Shown here piece by piece: positions 1 through 16,634 of a stretch of DNA of 36,697 nt. The notes under the pieces were generated by a model. It did no database searches and had not been told where the DNA came from. It worked only from the letters and a program-made list of their open reading frames with translations. Location of the stretch: positions 1-36,697 of the forward strand of contig JACPAV010000038.1 of assembly GCA_016180645.1 (NCBI GenBank). The letters run 5' to 3'. Source of the stretch: Nitrospirota bacterium. Its GTDB lineage: Bacteria; JACPQY01. Position numbers and translations under genes: made by a program. Positions within the stretch are counted from its first letter, which is position 1. Each line of letters opens with the position of its first letter.

Positions 1-93
1 CCCCAGGAAGGCGGGGGACCAAGAAATCAAGAACTTGACAAAGAATTCCTATAGCTTAACTTTGGCTGAAATCTGTCCAAACGATGGGGGTAA

Positions 94-3000
94 GCTCCGG
101 CCTTTGAAGATGTCTTCAAATACAAACAGCGTACGCACAAGCGAGCGGACCAAGTCGCAAAACTTCATACCATCCAAAGTACCTTTGAGGGAGACAAAGA
201 CGTCAAGTTCGACCAAGAGAACAGCCCGACGGGCAAGGCGATGACAATCCACGGCATGAAGAACGACCCGCGATGGAAAGGTGATACGCAGACCGGCAGG
301 AAGGGAATCACCGATCTCTTGGAAGAGTTGCGCACAGCCAAGGAACTTGATGACTACGGCCTGCGCAGCGGAACGATTGGCGGCTGGGCCGATTTGAGGA
401 AGGTGTTCCTCAGACTGGAAAAGAAAGCAAAGGATGGAAATCGAGCCCTCACGCGAGATGAATTGGAGAACGCCGTCGAAGATGAGAAGCGAGACAATCG
501 CCAAGGTTTCGGGAGCGACGATTTCTTCAAGAAACTCTGCGAACCTCAATATCATCACCTTTGGTCGGCATCAGCGGAGCGCAACGGCATCCGCGACTTC
601 ATTCCCCATTTCGTTGACTACCATGAGTGGATGGAGGATCTGGGCGATCTGGAAATTCGAGATGAGAACGGCAACGTGACCGTCAAGCCGATCAGCTACA
701 CGTTTCCGGGCACGCAGAATCGGCATAAGAAAACGAGCTACCGGCACTTCAATTTCAAAGAGAAGCTCAACCGACAAATGAAGCTGTCTCTTTTCCGAAA
801 GCACACAGGGAACGGGAGCGTCCGCTATGAGTTGCTCAATGATGTTCCGGTCACGCTTTCCGCGCGGCGGCTGAAAAGGGACAAAGTCATGACAGCCGAT
901 GGCACAAGCATGAATGCAGTGTGGTGTCCGCCGCTCGTGCTGGAGGACGAAAAGCCACGCGCTGGAAAGAAGAAAAGCGGCAGATGGCAACCCGGTGATT
1001 TGCCAGTAAGCTTTTTGCTGATGGTCGAAGACGAGCGCAACGGCGAACCGCAACCAATCCACCTGAAAGTCGCCGTTCCCATCGAATGGGGTGAGCAGAA
1101 GAAGCTTCAAAAGGGAACGATCCGCTGGGAAGCTGGTTCATTGCGCGGTTATGCCAAGAAAGACGAACCTGATGCCGATAAACGGCGTCATTTCAAATGG
1201 CCGGTGGACCTGCAAGAGCAGCCCAGCACCAAAGTATCCACATCCGCCAACGACGAGGAAGGGATCACTGCAACGAGGCTGTGGTGCGGCGATGGAAAAA
1301 AGCCGCTCAACGGCTTCCGTGTGAGAACGGAAGAGGGGAGGACTGCCTCAGAGCTTCACATTCTATCCGTGGATTTGGGCATGCGCTTTTCGTCCGCGTT
1401 TGCGCGCCTGCGCGTTCACTGCGACCCCAACGGCGAAGGACGGGTCATTTCGCCCGATGGTTTTGCCACCCCGATTCGTGCCCACGTCTATCGCAAGGGC
1501 ACGCTGCGGTTACAGGGCGAGAACGCCAAGGTCTGGGATCACAAGCGAGATAGCCAGGGCCATTGCGTGAAGGACATAGAGGGCAACCATGTGTATGAGT
1601 TCCAGACGGAAACCTACGGCAATGACGGGCGCGGACGGTTTCCTAAGCTGGAGGAGATTGGGGCGTTCAGAATGCTGGCCTACCGGATCGTGCCGGAGAA
1701 TGCTTTCCCGATTATTGGCGCAGAGAAGATGACGTACCCGGAAATGGGCGACCATCTCATCATGCGGTTGCGCCGGCGCATCAGCCGGATTCGCTCGTTG
1801 TTCAGTCTGCGCTGGCACGTGAGCGGCACGATGGAACGCGACAACTCAACCGGTGTGTACGACAAGCCGCGCATAGAAGCCGACAAGAAGGAGCATTACC
1901 GGGTGGCCGCGGAGACGCTGGGCAAACTCGCGTTCCCGAAGAAACCATGGCCCGAAGGTGAGGAAGAACATCCCGAAAATGCGAAACTGCGTACTGCTTT
2001 GAATAGCGACAAGCAGGCTTGGGATGCCATCAAAGACGACCTTGAGCCTTGCAAGGAACAAGCCGACGAAAAGCTGCGGTGTCAGCGGCTGGACGCGGCC
2101 ATCAGGGGCTGGAATTGGAACGCTCTGGCCGATGAACTCAACCAGCAATTGAATGAGTACTTCAACGGCAAGGATGCAACATCTGCGTTGCTCGTTGGCG
2201 TCGTTGAGCACTGCTTGCCACTGCGAAAGCGCCATTGGCGCTGGGACGGAAGCAAGCACCGACTCTCAATGGAGCACGGAGAGACTGATCCGCAGCACCT
2301 TCCGCTCGTCCAAGGAATGCGCGGGCTGTCCATGCGGCGATTGGAGCAGGTGTTGAACTTGCGGCAGCGTTGTCAGAGCTTCGCCAAGATGGAGAAACGG
2401 TTCGCCGATGGCGACAAGGGGATCAATCCTCCACCGCCCATGAAGCGGGGCGAAGGCGATGACCCTTGCGAGGACTTGCTGGACAAGAGCAATGAACTCC
2501 GTGACCAGCGCGTAAACCAAACTGCGCACATGATCCTAGCGGAAGCTCTGGGCCTCGAACTGAAAAGTCCCGCTGAAGTAGCCGACAAGAAAGGCCGGAA
2601 GAACACAGTGGATTTGCACGGCGAATATAAGCGGATCACTTACCCGAAAACAGCAAGGCAGATGCCACGCTGTTCCATCATTGTGCTGGAGGATTTGACC
2701 CGGTATCGCACGAGCCAAGACCGGACGCGCAGCGAGAACTCGCGCCTTATGCAGTGGGCACACCGTGCCGTTGTGAAAAAGCTGGCTGACATCGCGAAGC
2801 CGTTTGGCATCACGATCATGCTGGTTGATCCAGCCTTCTCGTCACGGTTTTGCTCGCGGACAGGCTTGCCGGGCATTCGTGTGAACTCCGCGTCGCGTGG
2901 TTTTCACGAGAAGATGCCAAACGCGGCGTGGCTCATGCAGAAGAACATGGACGGCGAGCCGTCCGATCTCGCTAGGAAAGTCACGGCCCTGAAAACATTG

Positions 3001-3588
3001 TTTGAGCAGCACCCGAACTACAACGGGCAACTTCTCATCGCGGCGGACGGCGGAAAGGAGTTCCTGCCTGTGCCCGGCACTGCGGCGGAACGGAACACTG
3101 ACAGCGGATTGATGAACGCAGATGAAAACGCTGCCATCAATATCGGCCTGCGTGCCTTGGCGCATCCCAACCGATGGGATATTTTCCCGCGCCTTCGCAC
3201 GGTGGAAATCTCGGAAGAATCAGTACGCATCCGTAACCGACGCGGCTCGTTTGCCAAGTTGGCCGACGATGACCCAGAAAAATTGCTTGGGAAGGCCGAC
3301 ACATCATCGGCAACTGCTGGGAATGGTTCACGCGGAAATAAGGAAGGCGACGAGGAGCAGAACACGGAATCCTCGCAATATCCTGACTTCTTCCTCAACG
3401 CCTGCAATTTTCCCGGGATGCCGAAGAACGAGAGCTACACACCGCATCCCAACGCCGGGCTGTCGTTCAAGGCGTATCGTCGCGGACTGTTCTTGAAACG
3501 AGTCCAACAGCTTTGTGATGAACGCATCGAAGCCATCAACTCCAAGCGCCTTGAAGATTGGCGCAACAAGAAAGACATCCCGTGGTAG
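94..3588 (+). CDS. cas12b: Cas12b (C2c1) type V-B effector nuclease, N-terminus missing
   Basis: RNA-guided DNA endonuclease of type V-B CRISPR systems, which cuts DNA with one RuvC domain using a crRNA:tracrRNA guide. Numbered from the ATG at 241 (1115 codons), all three RuvC motifs are present: VDLGMRF with D378, VLEDLTRY with E817 followed by ENSRLMQWAHR, and NADENAAINIG with D961. The segments FGSDDFFKKL, AFSSRFCSRTGLPGIR and the C-terminal KKDIPW resemble Cas12b, closest from memory to the large Opitutaceae-type proteins. The family normally has a further 200 or more N-terminal residues (WED/REC1). Frame 1 stays open back to 94 and still reads like Cas12b (FEDVFKYKQ), but stops lie at 52, 67 and 91, while frame 2 is open over 2-93. 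So the true start is not visible, and ATG 241 is internal. A frameshift near 94-110 or a truncation at the window edge would explain this. Nothing visible damages the nuclease core. Confidence 0.93.
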   Translation, partial: APAFEDVFKYKQRTHKRADQVAKLHTIQSTFEGDKDVKFDQENSPTGKAMTIHGMKNDPRWKGDTQTGRKGITDLLEELRTAKELDDYGLRSGTIGGWADLRKVFLRLEKKAKDGNRALTRDELENAVEDEKRDNRQGFGSDDFFKKLCEPQYHHLWSASAERNGIRDFIPHFVDYHEWMEDLGDLEIRDENGNVTVKPISYTFPGTQNRHKKTSYRHFNFKEKLNRQMKLSLFRKHTGNGSVRYELLNDVPVTLSARRLKRDKVMTADGTSMNAVWCPPLVLEDEKPRAGKKKSGRWQPGDLPVSFLLMVEDERNGEPQPIHLKVAVPIEWGEQKKLQKGTIRWEAGSLRGYAKKDEPDADKRRHFKWPVDLQEQPSTKVSTSANDEEGITATRLWCGDGKKPLNGFRVRTEEGRTASELHILSVDLGMRFSSAFARLRVHCDPNGEGRVISPDGFATPIRAHVYRKGTLRLQGENAKVWDHKRDSQGHCVKDIEGNHVYEFQTETYGNDGRGRFPKLEEIGAFRMLAYRIVPENAFPIIGAEKMTYPEMGDHLIMRLRRRISRIRSLFSLRWHVSGTMERDNSTGVYDKPRIEADKKEHYRVAAETLGKLAFPKKPWPEGEEEHPENAKLRTALNSDKQAWDAIKDDLEPCKEQADEKLRCQRLDAAIRGWNWNALADELNQQLNEYFNGKDATSALLVGVVEHCLPLRKRHWRWDGSKHRLSMEHGETDPQHLPLVQGMRGLSMRRLEQVLNLRQRCQSFAKMEKRFADGDKGINPPPPMKRGEGDDPCEDLLDKSNELRDQRVNQTAHMILAEALGLELKSPAEVADKKGRKNTVDLHGEYKRITYPKTARQMPRCSIIVLEDLTRYRTSQDRTRSENSRLMQWAHRAVVKKLADIAKPFGITIMLVDPAFSSRFCSRTGLPGIRVNSASRGFHEKMPNAAWLMQKNMDGEPSDLARKVTALKTLFEQHPNYNGQLLIAADGGKEFLPVPGTAAERNTDSGLMNADENAAINIGLRALAHPNRWDIFPRLRTVEISEESVRIRNRRGSFAKLADDDPEKLLGKADTSSATAGNGSRGNKEGDEEQNTESSQYPDFFLNACNFPGMPKNESYTPHPNAGLSFKAYRRGLFLKRVQQLCDERIEAINSKRLEDWRNKKDIPW

Positions 3589-4344: not shown

Positions 4345-4377
4345 CCGCCGTCTCTACCCCTCTCGCCCCGCCCCGCT

Positions 4378-4419
4378 TGGTCGTGGGCCTTGCATGGCTT
4401 CGCGCAAGGCCCACGACCA
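4378..4419. repeat. Perfect 16-bp inverted repeat upstream of cas4-cas1
   Basis: Arms 4378-4393 (TGGTCGTGGGCCTTGC) and 4404-4419 pair perfectly around a 10-base loop. No T-run follows on either strand, so it is not a classic intrinsic terminator. It may be a palindromic REP-like unit or a hairpin in the 5' leader of the adaptation genes. Confidence 0.7.
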
Positions 4420-4505
4420 GGCAGTCGCGGGACGGCCAAGCCATCCTGGCGCCGCCCCGGCTTCCGGATTCCCGCCGGGAGCGGACAGAGCCATCCGCCC
4501 TTGTC

Positions 4506-6203
4506 ATGAGCGACGCCCCCGTTCAAACCCAAGCCGGACTTGAAGCGCAACCGCCGATGCCGGTGCGGCGGCTCCACAACTTCCTCTACTGCCCGCGCCT
4601 CTTCTACTACCAGTGGGTCGAAAATATCTTTCAGGAAAACGCGGATACGGTGGAAGGATCGCACGCGCATCGGAACGTGGACCGGCCCTCCCGCATCGAA
4701 GACCCGACGAAGCTCGATCTGCCGGAAGGGACGCAGATTCGTTCTCTTCGGCTTGCGAGTGAGAAGCTGGGACTCGTCGGTGTGGTCGATCTCATCGAAG
4801 GCGGTCCCGAAGGGGCCGTGTTGATCGATTACAAGAAAGGCTCGGCCCGTCGGGACGAAGCCGGAGAGCGCGTGGCGAAAGAGCCGGATGCGATGCAGCT
4901 CGTGGCTCAGTCTATGCTCTTGCGCGAACACGCCATCAGCGTCAAGGAGGCGTTCGTCTACTATGCCGCCGACAAGCGGAGGGTGCCTGTAGACGTATCA
5001 GAGGAACGGACCCGTGAATGCCTCGAAAAACTCGATCAGGCCAAAGCCCTCGCCGCCGAAGGCCGCTGCCCACCGCCGCTCCAGGATGATCCACGGTGCC
5101 TCTATTGCTCGGCCTATCCGATCTGTCTCCCCAATGAATCCGAGTTCTGGCGCGAACCGAAAGGTGAACCGATTACCGTCAAGCGGCCTCCGAGGCCGGA
5201 GGACGACGACGGCGAAATCCTCATCGTCCAGAGGCCCGGCGCCCAAATTGGCTTCAGGGGAGGGCAGATCGTGGTGGTCCTCAAAGGCGATACGATACGA
5301 GCGTTGCCATCCATGCAGGTGCGCGCAGTCTACGTCTACGGCGCGGTGCAAATTACAACGCAAGCGACTCATGCTTTCTTGGAACAAGGGGTCTCGGTGT
5401 CCTATTTTTCACCGTCCGGGCGTTTCCTCGGCATGCTGAACGGACTCCCCGCCTCCGGCGTGGACACGCGACGCGGTCAGTACCGTCTGTTCGATCAACC
5501 CACCACCTGCCTCGCGGTCGCGAAGGAGATGATTCGAGCCAAAATCCACAATCAACGCGTGATGCTCATGCGCAACGGCGAGCCTCCGGAGAAAGCGGTC
5601 TCGGAAATGATGCAGCTTCGGGATCAAACCTCGGAAGCGCATACCATGACCGAACTGCTTGGCCTGGAAGGGATGGCGGCGGCGCTCTACTTCGGGAACT
5701 TCGCTGGGATGCTGAAATCTTCCGACGGCGCCGGAGTCGATTTCTCATCGCGGAACCGTCGCCCTCCACGCGACCCCGTGAACGCGCTTCTTTCGATGGG
5801 ATACAGCGTCCTTTGCAAGGAGCTGGCGGGAATTTGCCACAGCGTGGGGCTCGATCCCTTCCTGGGGGTGATGCACCAGCCTCGTTACGGTCGGCCCGCC
5901 CTCGCGCTCGATCTCATGGAAGAGTTCCGGCCCCTGATCGTGGATAGCGTGGCGGTCAGCCTGATCAATCGCGGGGAAATCGCGAAGGATGACTTCATTT
6001 CCGGTTCATCCGGGGTGTTCATGAACGAAGACGGGCGCAAGGCTTTCTGGGAGGCGTATGGTCGGCGGATGGACACGGAAGTTTCCCATCCGCAGTTTGG
6101 CTACAGCATGCCGTACCGGCGTATGTTGGAGGTTCAGGCGAGACAGGTATGGCGGTTTGTTCGCGGAGAGGCATCCGGATATGTCGGATTCACGACCCGG
6201 TGA
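4506..6203 (+). CDS. cas4-cas1: Cas4-Cas1 fusion, spacer acquisition integrase/nuclease
   Basis: A 565-residue fusion of the PAM-selecting Cas4 nuclease and the Cas1 integrase, as typically found in type V-B and a few type I systems. The Cas4 part (about 18-215) has C29 in FLYCPRLFYY, a RecB-type core (GVVDLIEG followed by LIDYKKG), a QLVAQ helix, and the C-terminal cysteines C198, C201 and C207 that complete the Fe-S site. The Cas1 part (about 235-565) has the metal-binding residues E388 (LGLEGMAA), H457 (GVMHQPRYGR) and D469 (ALDLMEEF). Both halves look intact. I chose the ATG at 4506 because the frame upstream of it runs through the 16-bp inverted repeat and does not look coding. The stop is three bases before the cas2 start, so the two are surely cotranscribed. 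Confidence 0.96.
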   Translation: MSDAPVQTQAGLEAQPPMPVRRLHNFLYCPRLFYYQWVENIFQENADTVEGSHAHRNVDRPSRIEDPTKLDLPEGTQIRSLRLASEKLGLVGVVDLIEGGPEGAVLIDYKKGSARRDEAGERVAKEPDAMQLVAQSMLLREHAISVKEAFVYYAADKRRVPVDVSEERTRECLEKLDQAKALAAEGRCPPPLQDDPRCLYCSAYPICLPNESEFWREPKGEPITVKRPPRPEDDDGEILIVQRPGAQIGFRGGQIVVVLKGDTIRALPSMQVRAVYVYGAVQITTQATHAFLEQGVSVSYFSPSGRFLGMLNGLPASGVDTRRGQYRLFDQPTTCLAVAKEMIRAKIHNQRVMLMRNGEPPEKAVSEMMQLRDQTSEAHTMTELLGLEGMAAALYFGNFAGMLKSSDGAGVDFSSRNRRPPRDPVNALLSMGYSVLCKELAGICHSVGLDPFLGVMHQPRYGRPALALDLMEEFRPLIVDSVAVSLINRGEIAKDDFISGSSGVFMNEDGRKAFWEAYGRRMDTEVSHPQFGYSMPYRRMLEVQARQVWRFVRGEASGYVGFTTR

Positions 6204-6206
6204 CCG

Positions 6207-6497
6207 ATGAAACGAACACGATTTCTGGTTTGCTATGACATTTCCAACCCCAAACGTTTGCGCCGTGTGGCCAAAGTTCTTGAAGGCTACGGTCGTCGGC
6301 TTCAGTTCTCGGTGTTCGAATGTCCGCTGGGCAGTCTGCGTTTTTCCAAGTTGAAGTCCGATCTACAAGGCGTGCTGAATCACGACCAGGACCAAGTGAT
6401 GTTCGTATCGCTGGGTGGGGCCGAGGCAGATGCCGGTCTTGTGATCGAAACGATGGGCCAGCCTTATGTGGCTCACACCCGGATAACCGTGGTCTGA
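6207..6497 (+). CDS. cas2: Cas2, CRISPR adaptation protein
   Basis: A 96-residue Cas2 of normal size. It forms a homodimer that bridges two Cas1 dimers in the spacer-integration complex. The N-terminal strand FLVCYDISNPKRLRRVAKVLEGYG carries the conserved aspartate D11 and the usual ferredoxin-like opening, followed by LQFSVFECPL. It starts three bases after the cas4-cas1 stop and is clearly in the same operon. Its TGA stop at 6495-6497 is immediately followed by the -35 element of the predicted tracrRNA promoter, leaving no room for a terminator between them. Confidence 0.95.
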   Translation: MKRTRFLVCYDISNPKRLRRVAKVLEGYGRRLQFSVFECPLGSLRFSKLKSDLQGVLNHDQDQVMFVSLGGAEADAGLVIETMGQPYVAHTRITVV

Positions 6498-6526
6498 TTG
6501 ACTCATCATGAAGGTGTTGATATCTT
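6498..6526 (+). promoter_or_regulatory. Promoter of the predicted tracrRNA
   Basis: TTGACT (6498-6503), a 17-base spacer and TATCTT (6521-6526) give a good sigma70-type promoter starting the base after the cas2 stop. Initiation would fall near 6533, at the start of the first tracrRNA hairpin. Confidence 0.65.
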
Positions 6527-6531
6527 TCATA

Positions 6532-6600
6532 TTGGCTAAGGCCAACGACCACAACCCTTCCGCCATTGGGGTTGCAGGCTCTTTGAAATCGCGAGTGCGG
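6532..6600 (+). ncRNA. Predicted type V-B tracrRNA
   Basis: Three elements appear in the order I recall for Cas12b tracrRNAs. (1) A 5' hairpin: TTGGC (6532-6536), loop TAAG, GCCAA (6541-6545). (2) A hairpin with stem CAACCC (6552-6557) and GGGTTG (6569-6574), whose loop contains CCGCC (6560-6564), complementary to the last five repeat bases GGCGG. (3) A 16-base anti-repeat at 6577-6592 that pairs with repeat positions 13-28 by 13 Watson-Crick pairs, two G-U pairs and one mismatch. It lies between cas2 and the array on the same strand, with its own promoter. The 3' end is not defined by a visible terminator and may extend past 6600. It is not confirmed by expression data. Confidence 0.8.
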
Positions 6601-6767
6601 AATTGATCGGCAATCAGCCTTGAGACGCTCGAAACACATATCTGGTTGAGAACGCATGATTATTCGAGTTCTGCTGTGGTGACTCGAAGCGGGAAGATCG
6701 GGCGATTCGAGAATGCTCGCAACCCGGTGCCGATCCTGCTGTCTTGCGGGCCGTTTCGAGACGCGCA
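6601..6767 (+). promoter_or_regulatory. CRISPR leader with five TTCGAG motifs
   Basis: A non-coding stretch between the tracrRNA and the first repeat. The hexamer TTCGAG occurs at 6663, 6706 and 6755, and its reverse complement CTCGAA at 6628 and 6683. The 6663/6683 pair forms an inverted repeat with a 14-base gap. I see no convincing -35/-10 for the array, so the pre-crRNA may start from the upstream promoter or from an unrecognised one. The orientation fits a leader, because the degenerate repeat lies at the far end. Confidence 0.6.
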
Positions 6768-6927
6768 GCCGACTCACCAGCGATTTCGAACAGCTTGAGG
6801 CGGAGGACGAAGGGAAAAACGCATACCCACCCCAGGGGCCGACTCACCAGCGATTTCGAACAGCTTGAGGCGGCTTTCGCTTTCGCAATCGCGGCGCGGG
6901 CGGCGGGCCGACTCACCAGCGATTTCG
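6768..6927 (+). CRISPR. Type V-B mini CRISPR array: 2 full repeats, 2 spacers, truncated third repeat
   Basis: Two identical 36-base repeats lie at 6768-6803 and 6838-6873, beginning GCCGACTCACCAGCGATTTC and ending AGCTTGAGGCGG. The spacers are 6804-6837 (34 bases) and 6874-6906 (33 bases). The third repeat starts at 6907, is identical for 21 bases, then runs directly into the hairpin element at 6927. The 36-base length and the 5' segment resemble the Alicyclobacillus type V-B repeat as I recall it, read in the same direction, so crRNAs should be transcribed rightwards like the cas genes. The tracrRNA complementarity supports the same strand. Confidence 0.93.
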
Positions 6928-7000
6928 GGAAATCTGGGGACAGGATACTCATTTCCGACTCGTTCACCTGAAGAATTGGTACACTGTCCCCAGATTTCCC
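6927..7000. mobile_element. GGGGACAG-type hairpin element, copy 1, interrupting the third CRISPR repeat
   Basis: 17-base perfect inverted ends (6927-6943, GGGAAATCTGGGGACAG, and 6984-7000) enclose a 40-base centre. It resembles the GGGGACAG-type palindromic units often linked to REP-associated (Y1) tyrosine transposases; I infer this from memory of the motif. No transposase is present. Its left end coincides with the breakpoint in CRISPR repeat 3. Confidence 0.75.
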
Positions 7001-7005
7001 ACGGG

Positions 7006-7041
7006 TTGACGGTTGATAACACATTGTAATAGAATGTTATC
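7006..7041 (+). promoter_or_regulatory. Promoter and operator palindrome of the vapBC-like cassette
   Basis: TTGACG (7006-7011), an 18-base spacer and TAGAAT (7030-7035) form the promoter, with 6 bases before the ATG at 7042. A palindrome, GATAACA (7015-7021) and TGTTATC (7035-7041), spans the -10 and start region, as expected for autorepression by a ribbon-helix-helix antitoxin. No Shine-Dalgarno is visible. Confidence 0.7.
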
Positions 7042-7266
7042 ATGATTCGAACACAGGTCAGTTTGGGGAGGGGCGACTACGAGGCGGCCAAGACAGAGGC
7101 CAGGCGGCTGGGTATCCCCTTCGCGGAGCTGGTCCGGCGGGCCCTGCGAGGCATCTTGCCGGTCCGGTCGAAAAAGCCGTGGATGAAATATGCCGGCATG
7201 GTGAGATCCGGAGACGCCGCCTCAAGCCGGACAATCGACGAAGTGGTCTACGGCCATGAGCGATGA
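7042..7266 (+). CDS. vapB: VapB-like ribbon-helix-helix antitoxin
   Basis: A 74-residue protein with a short N-terminal strand (MIRTQVSLGRGDYEAAKTEARRLGIPFAELVRRALR). This fits a ribbon-helix-helix (CopG/MetJ-like) DNA-binding domain over residues 1-40, followed by a toxin-binding tail (WMKYAGMVRSGDAASSRTIDEVVYG). It would bind and inhibit the PIN toxin encoded next and repress the shared promoter through the palindrome at 7015-7041. Its end overlaps the toxin start by 11 bases, typical of translational coupling. The ATG is placed exactly where transcription should begin, so the mRNA is probably leaderless. The family is clear by pattern; the exact vapB subfamily is not. Confidence 0.85.
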   Translation: MIRTQVSLGRGDYEAAKTEARRLGIPFAELVRRALRGILPVRSKKPWMKYAGMVRSGDAASSRTIDEVVYGHER

Positions 7267-7663
7267 ATGCTATGTGGACACCTCCGCATTCATCGCCTTC
7301 CTCGACGGTTCGGACTCCTTCCACTCGTTGTTCCAGAGGCTGTTTGCCGATCCGCCCCGTCTCATAACGTCTCCCCTCGTGATCGCCGAGGGCCACGGCT
7401 GGTTCCTCCGGCGGTACGATGCCCCGCGCGCCTTGCAATTTCTCCGCTTCATCGAAGCGCTGGCGACTCTCCAGATCATGGCCGTCGGCCCGGAGGAGAT
7501 TCGCGCCGGCGAAAAGTTCCTTCGGAAATTCATGGATCAGAGAATTACACTGACCGACGCCGTGGGACTGCTGATCATGGAAAAACGCCGCCACAAGATC
7601 TGCTGGAGTTCGGACGCGCACCTCGGTCTCACCGGCGCCCGCCTGGTCATCCACTCATCGTAA
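7256..7663 (+). CDS. vapC: VapC-like PIN-domain ribonuclease toxin
   Basis: A 135-residue PIN-domain toxin. PIN toxins are Mg-dependent endoribonucleases, often cutting tRNA or rRNA. The acidic active-site residues are all present: D8 (YVDTSAF), E45 (VIAEGHGW), D101 (ITLTDAVGLL) and D120 (WSSDAHLGL). Length and motif spacing are normal, so the toxin should be active when free of its antitoxin. The start lies inside the end of the antitoxin gene. The pair is flanked by two related hairpin elements in the same orientation and sits directly beside the broken end of the CRISPR array, so it may have arrived as a cassette. Confidence 0.93.
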   Translation: MSDECYVDTSAFIAFLDGSDSFHSLFQRLFADPPRLITSPLVIAEGHGWFLRRYDAPRALQFLRFIEALATLQIMAVGPEEIRAGEKFLRKFMDQRITLTDAVGLLIMEKRRHKICWSSDAHLGLTGARLVIHSS

Positions 7664-7673
7664 ATCCATGCGA

Positions 7674-7763
7674 GGAAATCCGGGGACCGCCTACTCATTT
7701 CCAAATCGTTCACCTGAAGAATGGGTACACTGTCCCTGGATTTTCCTGTCCCTGGATTTCCCC
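7674..7763. mobile_element. GGGGACAG-type hairpin element, copy 2, degenerate
   Basis: An imperfect direct copy of the element at 6927-7000, sharing TACTCATTTCC, CGTTCACCTGAAGAAT and TACACTGTCCC. Its right end is duplicated (7730-7746 and 7747-7763, each TGTCCCTGGATTTTCC-like). It bounds the toxin-antitoxin cassette on the right and ends eight bases before the apt stop codon. Confidence 0.7.
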
Positions 7764-7771
7764 GGGGGACA

Positions 7772-8308
7772 TCAATACCGGACGATCGAGAAGGCTTTGT
7801 GGGGTTTGAGCTTGTCCCTGCCGTGGAGGAAGGTGAGTTCGATTAGGAATGCACACTCCACGACTTTTCCGCCGCTGCGCGTCACGAGTTCGATCGCGGC
7901 GCGGGCGGTCCCGCCGGTGGCCAGCACGTCATCCACAATGAGCACGCGATCTCCCGCCGAGATGGCGTCCTGGTGGATCTCGACGGTGTCTGTTCCGTAC
8001 TCCAGTTGATACTCCACCGAGTGCGTCTTGTAGGGTAGTTTGCCGCGCTTGCGCATCGGGATGATGCCGGCGCGCAGCCGGAGCGCGAGAGGTGAGGCAA
8101 AGAGGAAACCCCGCGCATCCACGGCGAGCACCAGGTCGATGCGTTTGCTCTTGTAGTGATTCGCCAGTGTGTCGATGACGCCCCTGAAGGCCCGGGTCGA
8201 TTTCAGAAGGGGAGTGATGTCCTTGAAGATGATCCCGGCCTTCGGGAAATCCGGGATGTCACGGATGTAGAGCTTGGGATCTAGGGGTCGCGGTCGTTTC
8301 CGACTCAT
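7772..8308 (-). CDS. apt: Adenine phosphoribosyltransferase
   Basis: Converts adenine and PRPP to AMP in purine salvage, in the cytosol. The 178-residue length is normal. The family signatures are visible: the N-terminal DIPDFPKAGIIFKDITPLL, VLAVDARGFLFASPLA, and the PRPP-binding loop VLIVDDVLATGGT. The ATG overlaps the stop of the upstream REC-GAF-GGDEF-PilZ gene by 4 bases, making it the last gene of the reverse-strand operon. A GC-rich stretch on its complementary strand (7893-7908) happens to match 16 bases of CRISPR spacer 2. No terminator is obvious beyond its end, though the hairpin element at 7674-7763 could serve. Confidence 0.96.
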   Translation of the reverse strand: MSRKRPRPLDPKLYIRDIPDFPKAGIIFKDITPLLKSTRAFRGVIDTLANHYKSKRIDLVLAVDARGFLFASPLALRLRAGIIPMRKRGKLPYKTHSVEYQLEYGTDTVEIHQDAISAGDRVLIVDDVLATGGTARAAIELVTRSGGKVVECAFLIELTFLHGRDKLKPHKAFSIVRY

Positions 8309-15272: not shown

Positions 15273-16634
15273 TTATTCCGCGGTGAGTTCGGACGCAAGA
15301 TACACCATGTTCCGGCCGCGGGACTTGGCTTTGAACATGGCTTTGTCGGCGTAATCGAGAAGCGTCTGTTTCGTCGTCCCGTCCGAAGGAAAACACGCCA
15401 CGCCGATGGAGACGGAAGTCCGCAGGGATAGCCGTTCACGCGCAAGGAACTCATGGGACGCGACGCGCTCCCGGAGGCGTTCGGCCACGCGGATGGAGTT
15501 ATCCCGGCCCGTCCCCGTGAGCAGGGCGGTGAATTCGTCGCCTCCGTAGTGAACCATCACGTCCGATTCGCGGAGCGCGGCCTTGAGCACCCGGCCCAGC
15601 TCAATGAGCACTTTTCGCGCGGCGAGGTGGCCGTGAGCATCGACCACGGACTTGAACCGGTCGATATCGATAAAGAGAAGCCCGAATTCCAGCCCGTTCG
15701 CCTGTGAGCGGGGAATCTCACGGTCGATCACCGTATTCAGGTACCGGTCGTTGTGCAAGCCCGTGAGGTCGTCGACGAAACTCAAGGCCTGGACATCCTT
15801 GAAACGCTCCGCGTTCTCCGCCGCGAAGGCGATCTGGTCCCGCAGGAAGACGATGCGGAGCAGATCCTCCGACGTGAATTCGCCCGACGCGCGACCCACC
15901 CAGAGGGCGTGAAACCGATGGGCGGCGCCATAGAGCAGCACGCTGACGCACTTGAATCGGCGACCCGCGAGCGTGACCGCGCGTTTTTCCGGGGGCGCGA
16001 GTGACGGGGGGGGGGAAGCGGCGGCGGCCGCAGCCATCGTTTTCTGCATGTCCGGGTCGAGTCCGCTCGCCCCCGCGATTTCCATGCCTTCGGCATTGCC
16101 TGCCGTAACGGCTGTGAAATCGCAGGCCACGATCTGGCTCGCGACTTCCGCGGCCCGGCGATAGAGCTGATCCGGTTCCAACAGCGCGGTCAGGCTCCGC
16201 GTCCTCTCCAGGAGGTCCAGATGGCTCCGCAGAACACGGTCCTTCTCGATGGATTCGCGGCGCCGGAGGCATCGCCGCACCGTCAGGATCAATTCATTCG
16301 GTCCGAAGGGTTTCAGAAGGACGTCGCCTACCCCGACCCTCAGAGCACGGACGAGCAGTTCGACCGAGACGTTGCGCGCGGTCACGATCACCTGGCCGAG
16401 CGGGTCGGTCTGCCGCGCCTCCTGCAGGAATTGAACGCCGGGCATGCCCGGCATGATGAGGTCGGCGATGATGATGATCCCGGAGCGCCCACGCAGCCAT
16501 TCGAGTGCGGCCTCCGGGTCGGAGAAAAACTCGGTGGCCAGCCCTTCGGTGGACAGAATGTCACGGACCTGTTTCCGATAGCCTGCGTCGTCTTCGATGA
16601 TGCAGAGCGGAGAGAGGGCGGATGGAGTGGCCAC
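15273..16634 (-). CDS. Response regulator diguanylate cyclase (REC-GGDEF)
   Basis: A predicted c-di-GMP synthase. The receiver domain (about 1-125, LCIIEDDAGYRK, IIIIADLIMPGMPG, DVLLKPFGP) is followed by a variable sensor-like middle region with an alanine- and proline-rich stretch, and then a GGDEF domain containing FVDDLTGLHNDRYLN, the active site YGGDEF and an I-site RESD five residues before it. I set the start at the GTG at 16634 because a good promoter (TTGAGG, 17 bases, TAGAAT, reverse strand 16642-16670) ends 7 bases upstream; the TTG at 16670 lies inside that promoter's -35. It is the first gene of the hisS-mutL-miaA-accA-apt run and is divergent from cheY. Confidence 0.92.
   Translation of the reverse strand: MATPSALSPLCIIEDDAGYRKQVRDILSTEGLATEFFSDPEAALEWLRGRSGIIIIADLIMPGMPGVQFLQEARQTDPLGQVIVTARNVSVELLVRALRVGVGDVLLKPFGPNELILTVRRCLRRRESIEKDRVLRSHLDLLERTRSLTALLEPDQLYRRAAEVASQIVACDFTAVTAGNAEGMEIAGASGLDPDMQKTMAAAAAASPPPSLAPPEKRAVTLAGRRFKCVSVLLYGAAHRFHALWVGRASGEFTSEDLLRIVFLRDQIAFAAENAERFKDVQALSFVDDLTGLHNDRYLNTVIDREIPRSQANGLEFGLLFIDIDRFKSVVDAHGHLAARKVLIELGRVLKAALRESDVMVHYGGDEFTALLTGTGRDNSIRVAERLRERVASHEFLARERLSLRTSVSIGVACFPSDGTTKQTLLDYADKAMFKAKSRGRNMVYLASELTAE

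Follow-up and report, generated by a model that had tools for sequence, protein, structure and literature searches.

A REPIN-like hairpin at the truncated distal repeat of a type V-B CRISPR array with a split cas12b

The CRISPR array of a Nitrospirota bacterium stops inside its third repeat, at the outer end of a 74-bp palindromic element. We consider it likely that a non-autonomous, REPIN-like hairpin inserted into the distal repeat of this short type V-B array, and that the 15 bp of repeat on its far side were later lost or decayed. The window analysed here (36,697 bp; GenBank assembly GCA_016180645.1, JACPAV010000038.1) is the whole of contig C38 of a 4.7-Mb genome assembled in 65 contigs and 97% complete. 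An initial annotation from the letters of the window had described the cut array. It missed two further copies of the element, one at 7674-7746 (86%) and one on contig C35 (84%), and also the splitting of cas12b by an insertion sequence (IS) at the contig end. This split is a larger lesion than the cut in the array, and the hairpin is not the most damaging event at the locus.

Results

The array ends in a partial third repeat

The coordinates of the locus are collected in Table 1. The two complete repeats are identical at 36 of 36 positions (6768-6803 and 6838-6873), and both spacers retain a complete upstream repeat. A third copy matches the first 21 bp of the repeat with 0 mismatches (6907-6927), after which identity ends abruptly at the outer end of the hairpin element; G6927 is ambiguous and may be assigned either to the repeat, as its base 21, or to the element, as its first base. 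The repeat 21-mer occurs at these three places only in the window, even with three mismatches allowed (0 expected), and has no further copy in the genome at up to two mismatches. The initial annotation was thus accurate in its description of 21 matching bases running into a 74-bp hairpin with 17-bp inverted ends, of the absence of the rest of the repeat beyond it, and of two remaining spacers.

The array reads away from cas2. Because the leader and a predicted tracrRNA lie between cas2 and repeat 1, and because the repeats are oriented as in L037, the closest of the relatives described below, the cut repeat 3 is the distal one.

Beyond the element, the missing 15 bp of repeat 3 are unrecognisable. 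The best match over 12 registers is 8 of 15 bases, a level reached by 27% of window positions when 12 registers are allowed, and a degenerate remnant found in this way is indistinguishable from chance. If only the register that a clean insertion would leave is considered, 7000-7014 matches the missing 15 bases at 8 positions; the background for this fixed register is 2.6%, so a strongly decayed remnant of repeat 3 is possible. A search for the missing 3' half elsewhere, which the initial annotation had proposed as a check, found no copy in the 97%-complete genome with up to one mismatch.

No convincing target was found for either spacer. Spacer 1 matched nothing in phages, plasmids or viral contigs; spacer 2 has no self-target with up to three mismatches and a single weak phage match (E 0.3). 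The CRISPR repeat is absent from the viral contigs.

Table 1. Coordinates of the CRISPR-Cas locus, the hairpin elements and neighbouring genes; positions refer to the window unless another contig is named.
Feature	Position	Strand	Remark
Right end of the multicopy insertion sequence splitting cas12b	1..98	+	followed by target duplication GGC (99-101)
3' part of cas12b	99..3588	+	5' part on contig C41 (35530-36551)
cas4-cas1 fusion	4377..6203	+	62% identical to L037; the listed TTG probably lies upstream of the true start
cas2	6207..6497	+	PF09827; 60% identical to L037
Predicted tracrRNA	6516..6640	+	between cas2 and array; boundaries approximate; anti-repeat pairs with repeat
CRISPR repeat 1	6768..6803	+	36 bp, leader-proximal
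Spacer 1	6804..6837	+	34 bp
CRISPR repeat 2	6838..6873	+	36 bp, identical to repeat 1
Spacer 2	6874..6906	+	33 bp
CRISPR repeat 3, first 21 bp only	6907..6927	+	accounts for much of the predicted pairing with the tracrRNA
REPIN-like palindromic element, copy 1	6927..7000		74 bp, 17-bp perfect inverted ends
Small ORF, 74 aa	7042..7266	+	antitoxin-like by position only
PIN-domain protein, 135 aa, probable VapC-type toxin	7256..7663	+	PF01850
REPIN-like element, copy 2	7674..7746		86% identical to copy 1, same orientation
Extra right half-unit (CTGTCCCTGGATTTCC)	7746..7762		directly after copy 2
REPIN-like element, copy 3	C35:28981-29054		after pyrG; 84% identical to copy 1

The hairpin belongs to a dispersed family

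The inverted ends of copy 1 (6927-6943 and 6984-7000) pair perfectly over 17 bp each, and the element is predicted to fold at -38.7 kcal/mol. Three copies are present in the genome. The 8-mer GGGGACAG is by itself unremarkable in the window (2 found against 1.6 expected); the significance of the element lies in the 74-bp palindrome and in its family, which consists of dispersed GGGGACAG-KATACT-MATTTC units in inverted pairs. When about 85,000 genomes were scanned for GGGGACAGKATACTMATTTC, exact matches came up in 27 stretches, many of them as inverted pairs. One Caulobacter metagenome-assembled genome (MAG) holds seven stretches, each of them an inverted pair around a variable middle, with the right unit of one pair carrying a single change. 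One Rhodospirillales MAG holds five stretches with the unit. At locus L070 of a planctomycete MAG, a Y1_Tnp gene of RAYT type (PF01797, E 3e-11) is closely preceded by the unit, and at the Rhodospirillales locus L056 the unit stands shortly before the start of a RAYT-like gene that is cut by the contig end. These observations support the assignment of the element to a dispersed family of mobile hairpins which is RAYT-associated in other genomes.

In the present genome, none of the seven Y1_Tnp genes carries or is flanked by the element unit. Inspection by eye of the window and the listed family members showed neither GTAG nor GTGG at the 5' foot, and for want of the canonical GT[AG]G tag we call the element only REPIN-like. 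No target-site duplication is visible at it. IS200/IS605-type elements make no target-site duplication, and its absence is therefore not diagnostic.

Copies 1 and 2 have the same orientation and frame a PIN-domain gene with a small upstream ORF (7042-7663), which together are probably a toxin-antitoxin pair. The 74-aa ORF gave no Pfam, NCBIfam or PADLOC match. A 12-mer within it (7216-7227) is complementary to the repeat end, which we judged a chance match.

Adaptation genes and a predicted tracrRNA are conserved

From its matches to the Cas12b, Cas4-Cas1 and Cas2 models, the locus is assigned to type V-B; it is the only cas1 locus of the genome. Gene models for cas4-cas1 and cas2 bear out the earlier remark that the adaptation genes look intact, and we conclude that they are. 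Six further V-B loci, retrieved through their Cas12b, served for comparison; L037 is the closest of them. The region from cas2 to the array is conserved in L037, with GGCTAAGGCCA-CGACCA, TTCCGCCATTGG and CTTTGAAATCGCGA in common, and a stem in the tracrRNA region differs on both sides (CAACCC/GGGGTTG here versus CCTTTC/GAAAGG in L037). The duplex of anti-repeat and repeat is predicted at -40.5 kcal/mol, against -23.5 +/- 3.0 for shuffled sequences (0 of 200 as low) and -40.2 in L037. When the first 9 kb are scanned, the anti-repeat site ranks first outside the array, with a margin so small (next site -39.6) that conservation in L037 is the stronger evidence for the predicted tracrRNA. The 21 bp that remain of repeat 3 can still pair with it (-23.1 kcal/mol versus -14.7 +/- 2.8 for shuffles).

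In all three relatives with a visible array end (L036, L037 and L038) the terminal repeat is intact and of full length. The visible arrays of the relatives hold 5 to 40 repeats, that of the closest relative five. The comparison of array ends that the initial annotation had called for could thus be made with these V-B relatives, whereas no close relative with an empty site was found; a scan of genome contigs with Cas12b gave no match, and the one same-family genome compared has no Cas12b match.

Two peculiarities were noted among the relatives. In L037 the same gene start (MNILFIGDIVGKPGRHVAAGL) occurs twice, at 7064-8008 and 15633-16418, flanking the CRISPR-Cas locus as if this had inserted with a duplication. 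The 1552-aa Cas12b frame of L036 (G030:C6:53580-57914) contains, in tandem, two stretches that each resemble the N-terminal region of the Cas12b model.

An insertion sequence splits cas12b

The Cas12b ORF of the window (241-3588) matches NF033949 with an E value of 1e-118; it contains the RuvC D, E and D motifs in the alignment and is without the N-terminal part, which lies on contig C41. C41 terminates in a sequence found identically at the ends of C30 and C23, and C38 opens with one that C14 and C6 have in identical form. All six contigs break at the same multicopy IS, giving three left and three right ends with related inverted termini (TTACCCCCGTTTTTTGGACA / TGTCCAAACGATGGGGGTAA). GGC stands on both sides of the IS as a 3-bp target duplication, and the frame across the empty site is stop-free and 1502 aa long, compared with 1409-1552 aa in relatives with clear frames. 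From the N-terminal part on C41, the shared IS ends, the GGC duplication and the continuous frame, we conclude that cas12b is split by the IS at residue 340, with C41 and C38 presumably linked across the unassembled IS body. Counting window positions 1-98 and G000:C41:36552-36650 among its ends, at least three copies of this IS are present.

Just upstream of the split cas12b lies a 65-aa ORF (G000:C41:35322-35519; L028 1396-1593) that aligns with the N-terminus of Cas12b from L037 at 73% identity over 56 aa. The N-terminus of the resident Cas12b is unlike it. The ORF looks like what is left of an effector that came earlier or was replaced.

Discussion

Origin of the truncated repeat

Insertion of the hairpin would have occurred after base 20 or 21 of the distal, trailer-end repeat and was most likely the work of a RAYT (Y1/HUH) transposase acting in trans. 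Against a plain insertion stands the observation that the last 15 bp of the repeat should remain beyond the element, yet are unrecognisable; they would have been lost or have decayed later. That neither a close relative with the empty site nor a RAYT gene flanked by units in this genome was found also tells against this reading. The hairpin would then now cap an array in which repeats 1 and 2 and both spacers are complete, the only loss being the repeat handle that would lead a third spacer. The main alternative, though an unlikely one, is ordinary degeneration of a terminal repeat whose 3' end was already lost, so that the hairpin merely adjoins it. In Escherichia and Salmonella a terminal repeat nearly always shows degeneration of its 3' end (PMC2886076), and the 8 of 15 matches in the clean-insertion register are what a degenerate remnant would give; the same score is, however, commonplace once 12 registers are allowed. 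The abrupt end of the repeat at the element, the intact adaptation genes and the intact terminal repeats of the three V-B relatives make simple terminal decay the less likely account. A misjoin of the array end to a copy of the repetitive element from elsewhere is highly improbable: the assembly does break at repeats, but the longest exact word that copy 1 shares with copy 2 or any other copy is 17 bp, too short for a misjoin at usual k-mer lengths.

Insertion of the hairpin may have been followed or accompanied by more extensive loss. The initial annotation held that insertion or recombination at the element had removed the distal array. The part of this that stands is that an element of a mobile family abuts an abruptly ended repeat; as no trace of a lost distal array was found, its removal is only a possibility, and a rather doubtful one, which would extend the insertion reading and not exclude it. 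Same-orientation copies 746 bp apart would allow homologous deletion in principle, and the relatives' longer visible arrays fit a once longer array here. On the other hand, neither an orphan repeat half nor an extra repeat turned up in the genome, the closest relative is also short, a 17-bp exact word is short for homologous recombination, and few spacers may simply reflect a broken effector. If repeat 3 was already terminal, no spacer was lost. It is improbable that the whole stretch of hairpin, PIN-domain toxin pair and hairpin (6927-7762) arrived as a single composite unit: the direct-orientation copies do flank exactly one probable toxin-antitoxin pair, but past 7762 the rest of repeat 3 is likewise absent, copies that differ by 14% are not a recent pair, and none of the other genomes encountered here showed such an arrangement. 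We also give little credence to the idea that selection has retained the hairpin as a useful array cap, in which the 5' part of the repeat would pair with the tracrRNA and help to process the last crRNA while the hairpin provides a stable 3' end or terminator of the CRISPR transcript.

Relation to known systems

With two inverted REP-like units that form a hairpin around a short variable middle, the element resembles REPINs and RAYT-associated REP (TnpA-REP) sequences of roughly 50-75 bp (PMC3116915, PMC6006769). Like these, its family is dispersed, extragenic in the cases looked at, present in multiple copies in some genomes, and in some located beside Y1 transposase genes. Unlike REPINs, it has no GT[AG]G at the foot, and this genome holds only three copies and no unit-flanked RAYT gene. 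The host locus likewise shares with type V-B systems a Cas12b match with RuvC motifs, a Cas4-Cas1 fusion, Cas2, 36-bp repeats, 33-34-bp spacers and a tracrRNA, predicted only, that is complementary to the repeat and lies between cas2 and the array; it differs in that its large cas12b is split by an IS, in having only two spacers and in its cut distal repeat. A mobile element also interrupts the CRISPR2 array of E. coli ATCC 8739, which is disrupted by an IS (PMC2886076). In contrast to that case, the present element is a non-autonomous hairpin in the last repeat and no full IS, and no array is seen beyond it. The literature searched, which covered few subscription journals, held no earlier report of a REPIN-like hairpin inside a CRISPR repeat. 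What we describe nevertheless looks like known things in a new instance, a REPIN-like insertion in a decaying V-B locus, and not like a new mechanism.

Implications for the locus

Apart from the hairpin in a repeat and the record of decay, the region shows ordinary genome wear. The locus appears to be a V-B system in mid-decay, its effector broken by an IS while the adaptation genes and the predicted tracrRNA are conserved. The intact effector gene needed for functional V-B immunity is not present, and with cas12b split, interference is probably dead. Uptake may persist, with Cas4-Cas1, Cas2 and the leader side of the array intact: as V-B spacer uptake in E. coli does not require Cas12b (PMC9419969), the locus could in principle still gather spacers that are unusable without the effector.
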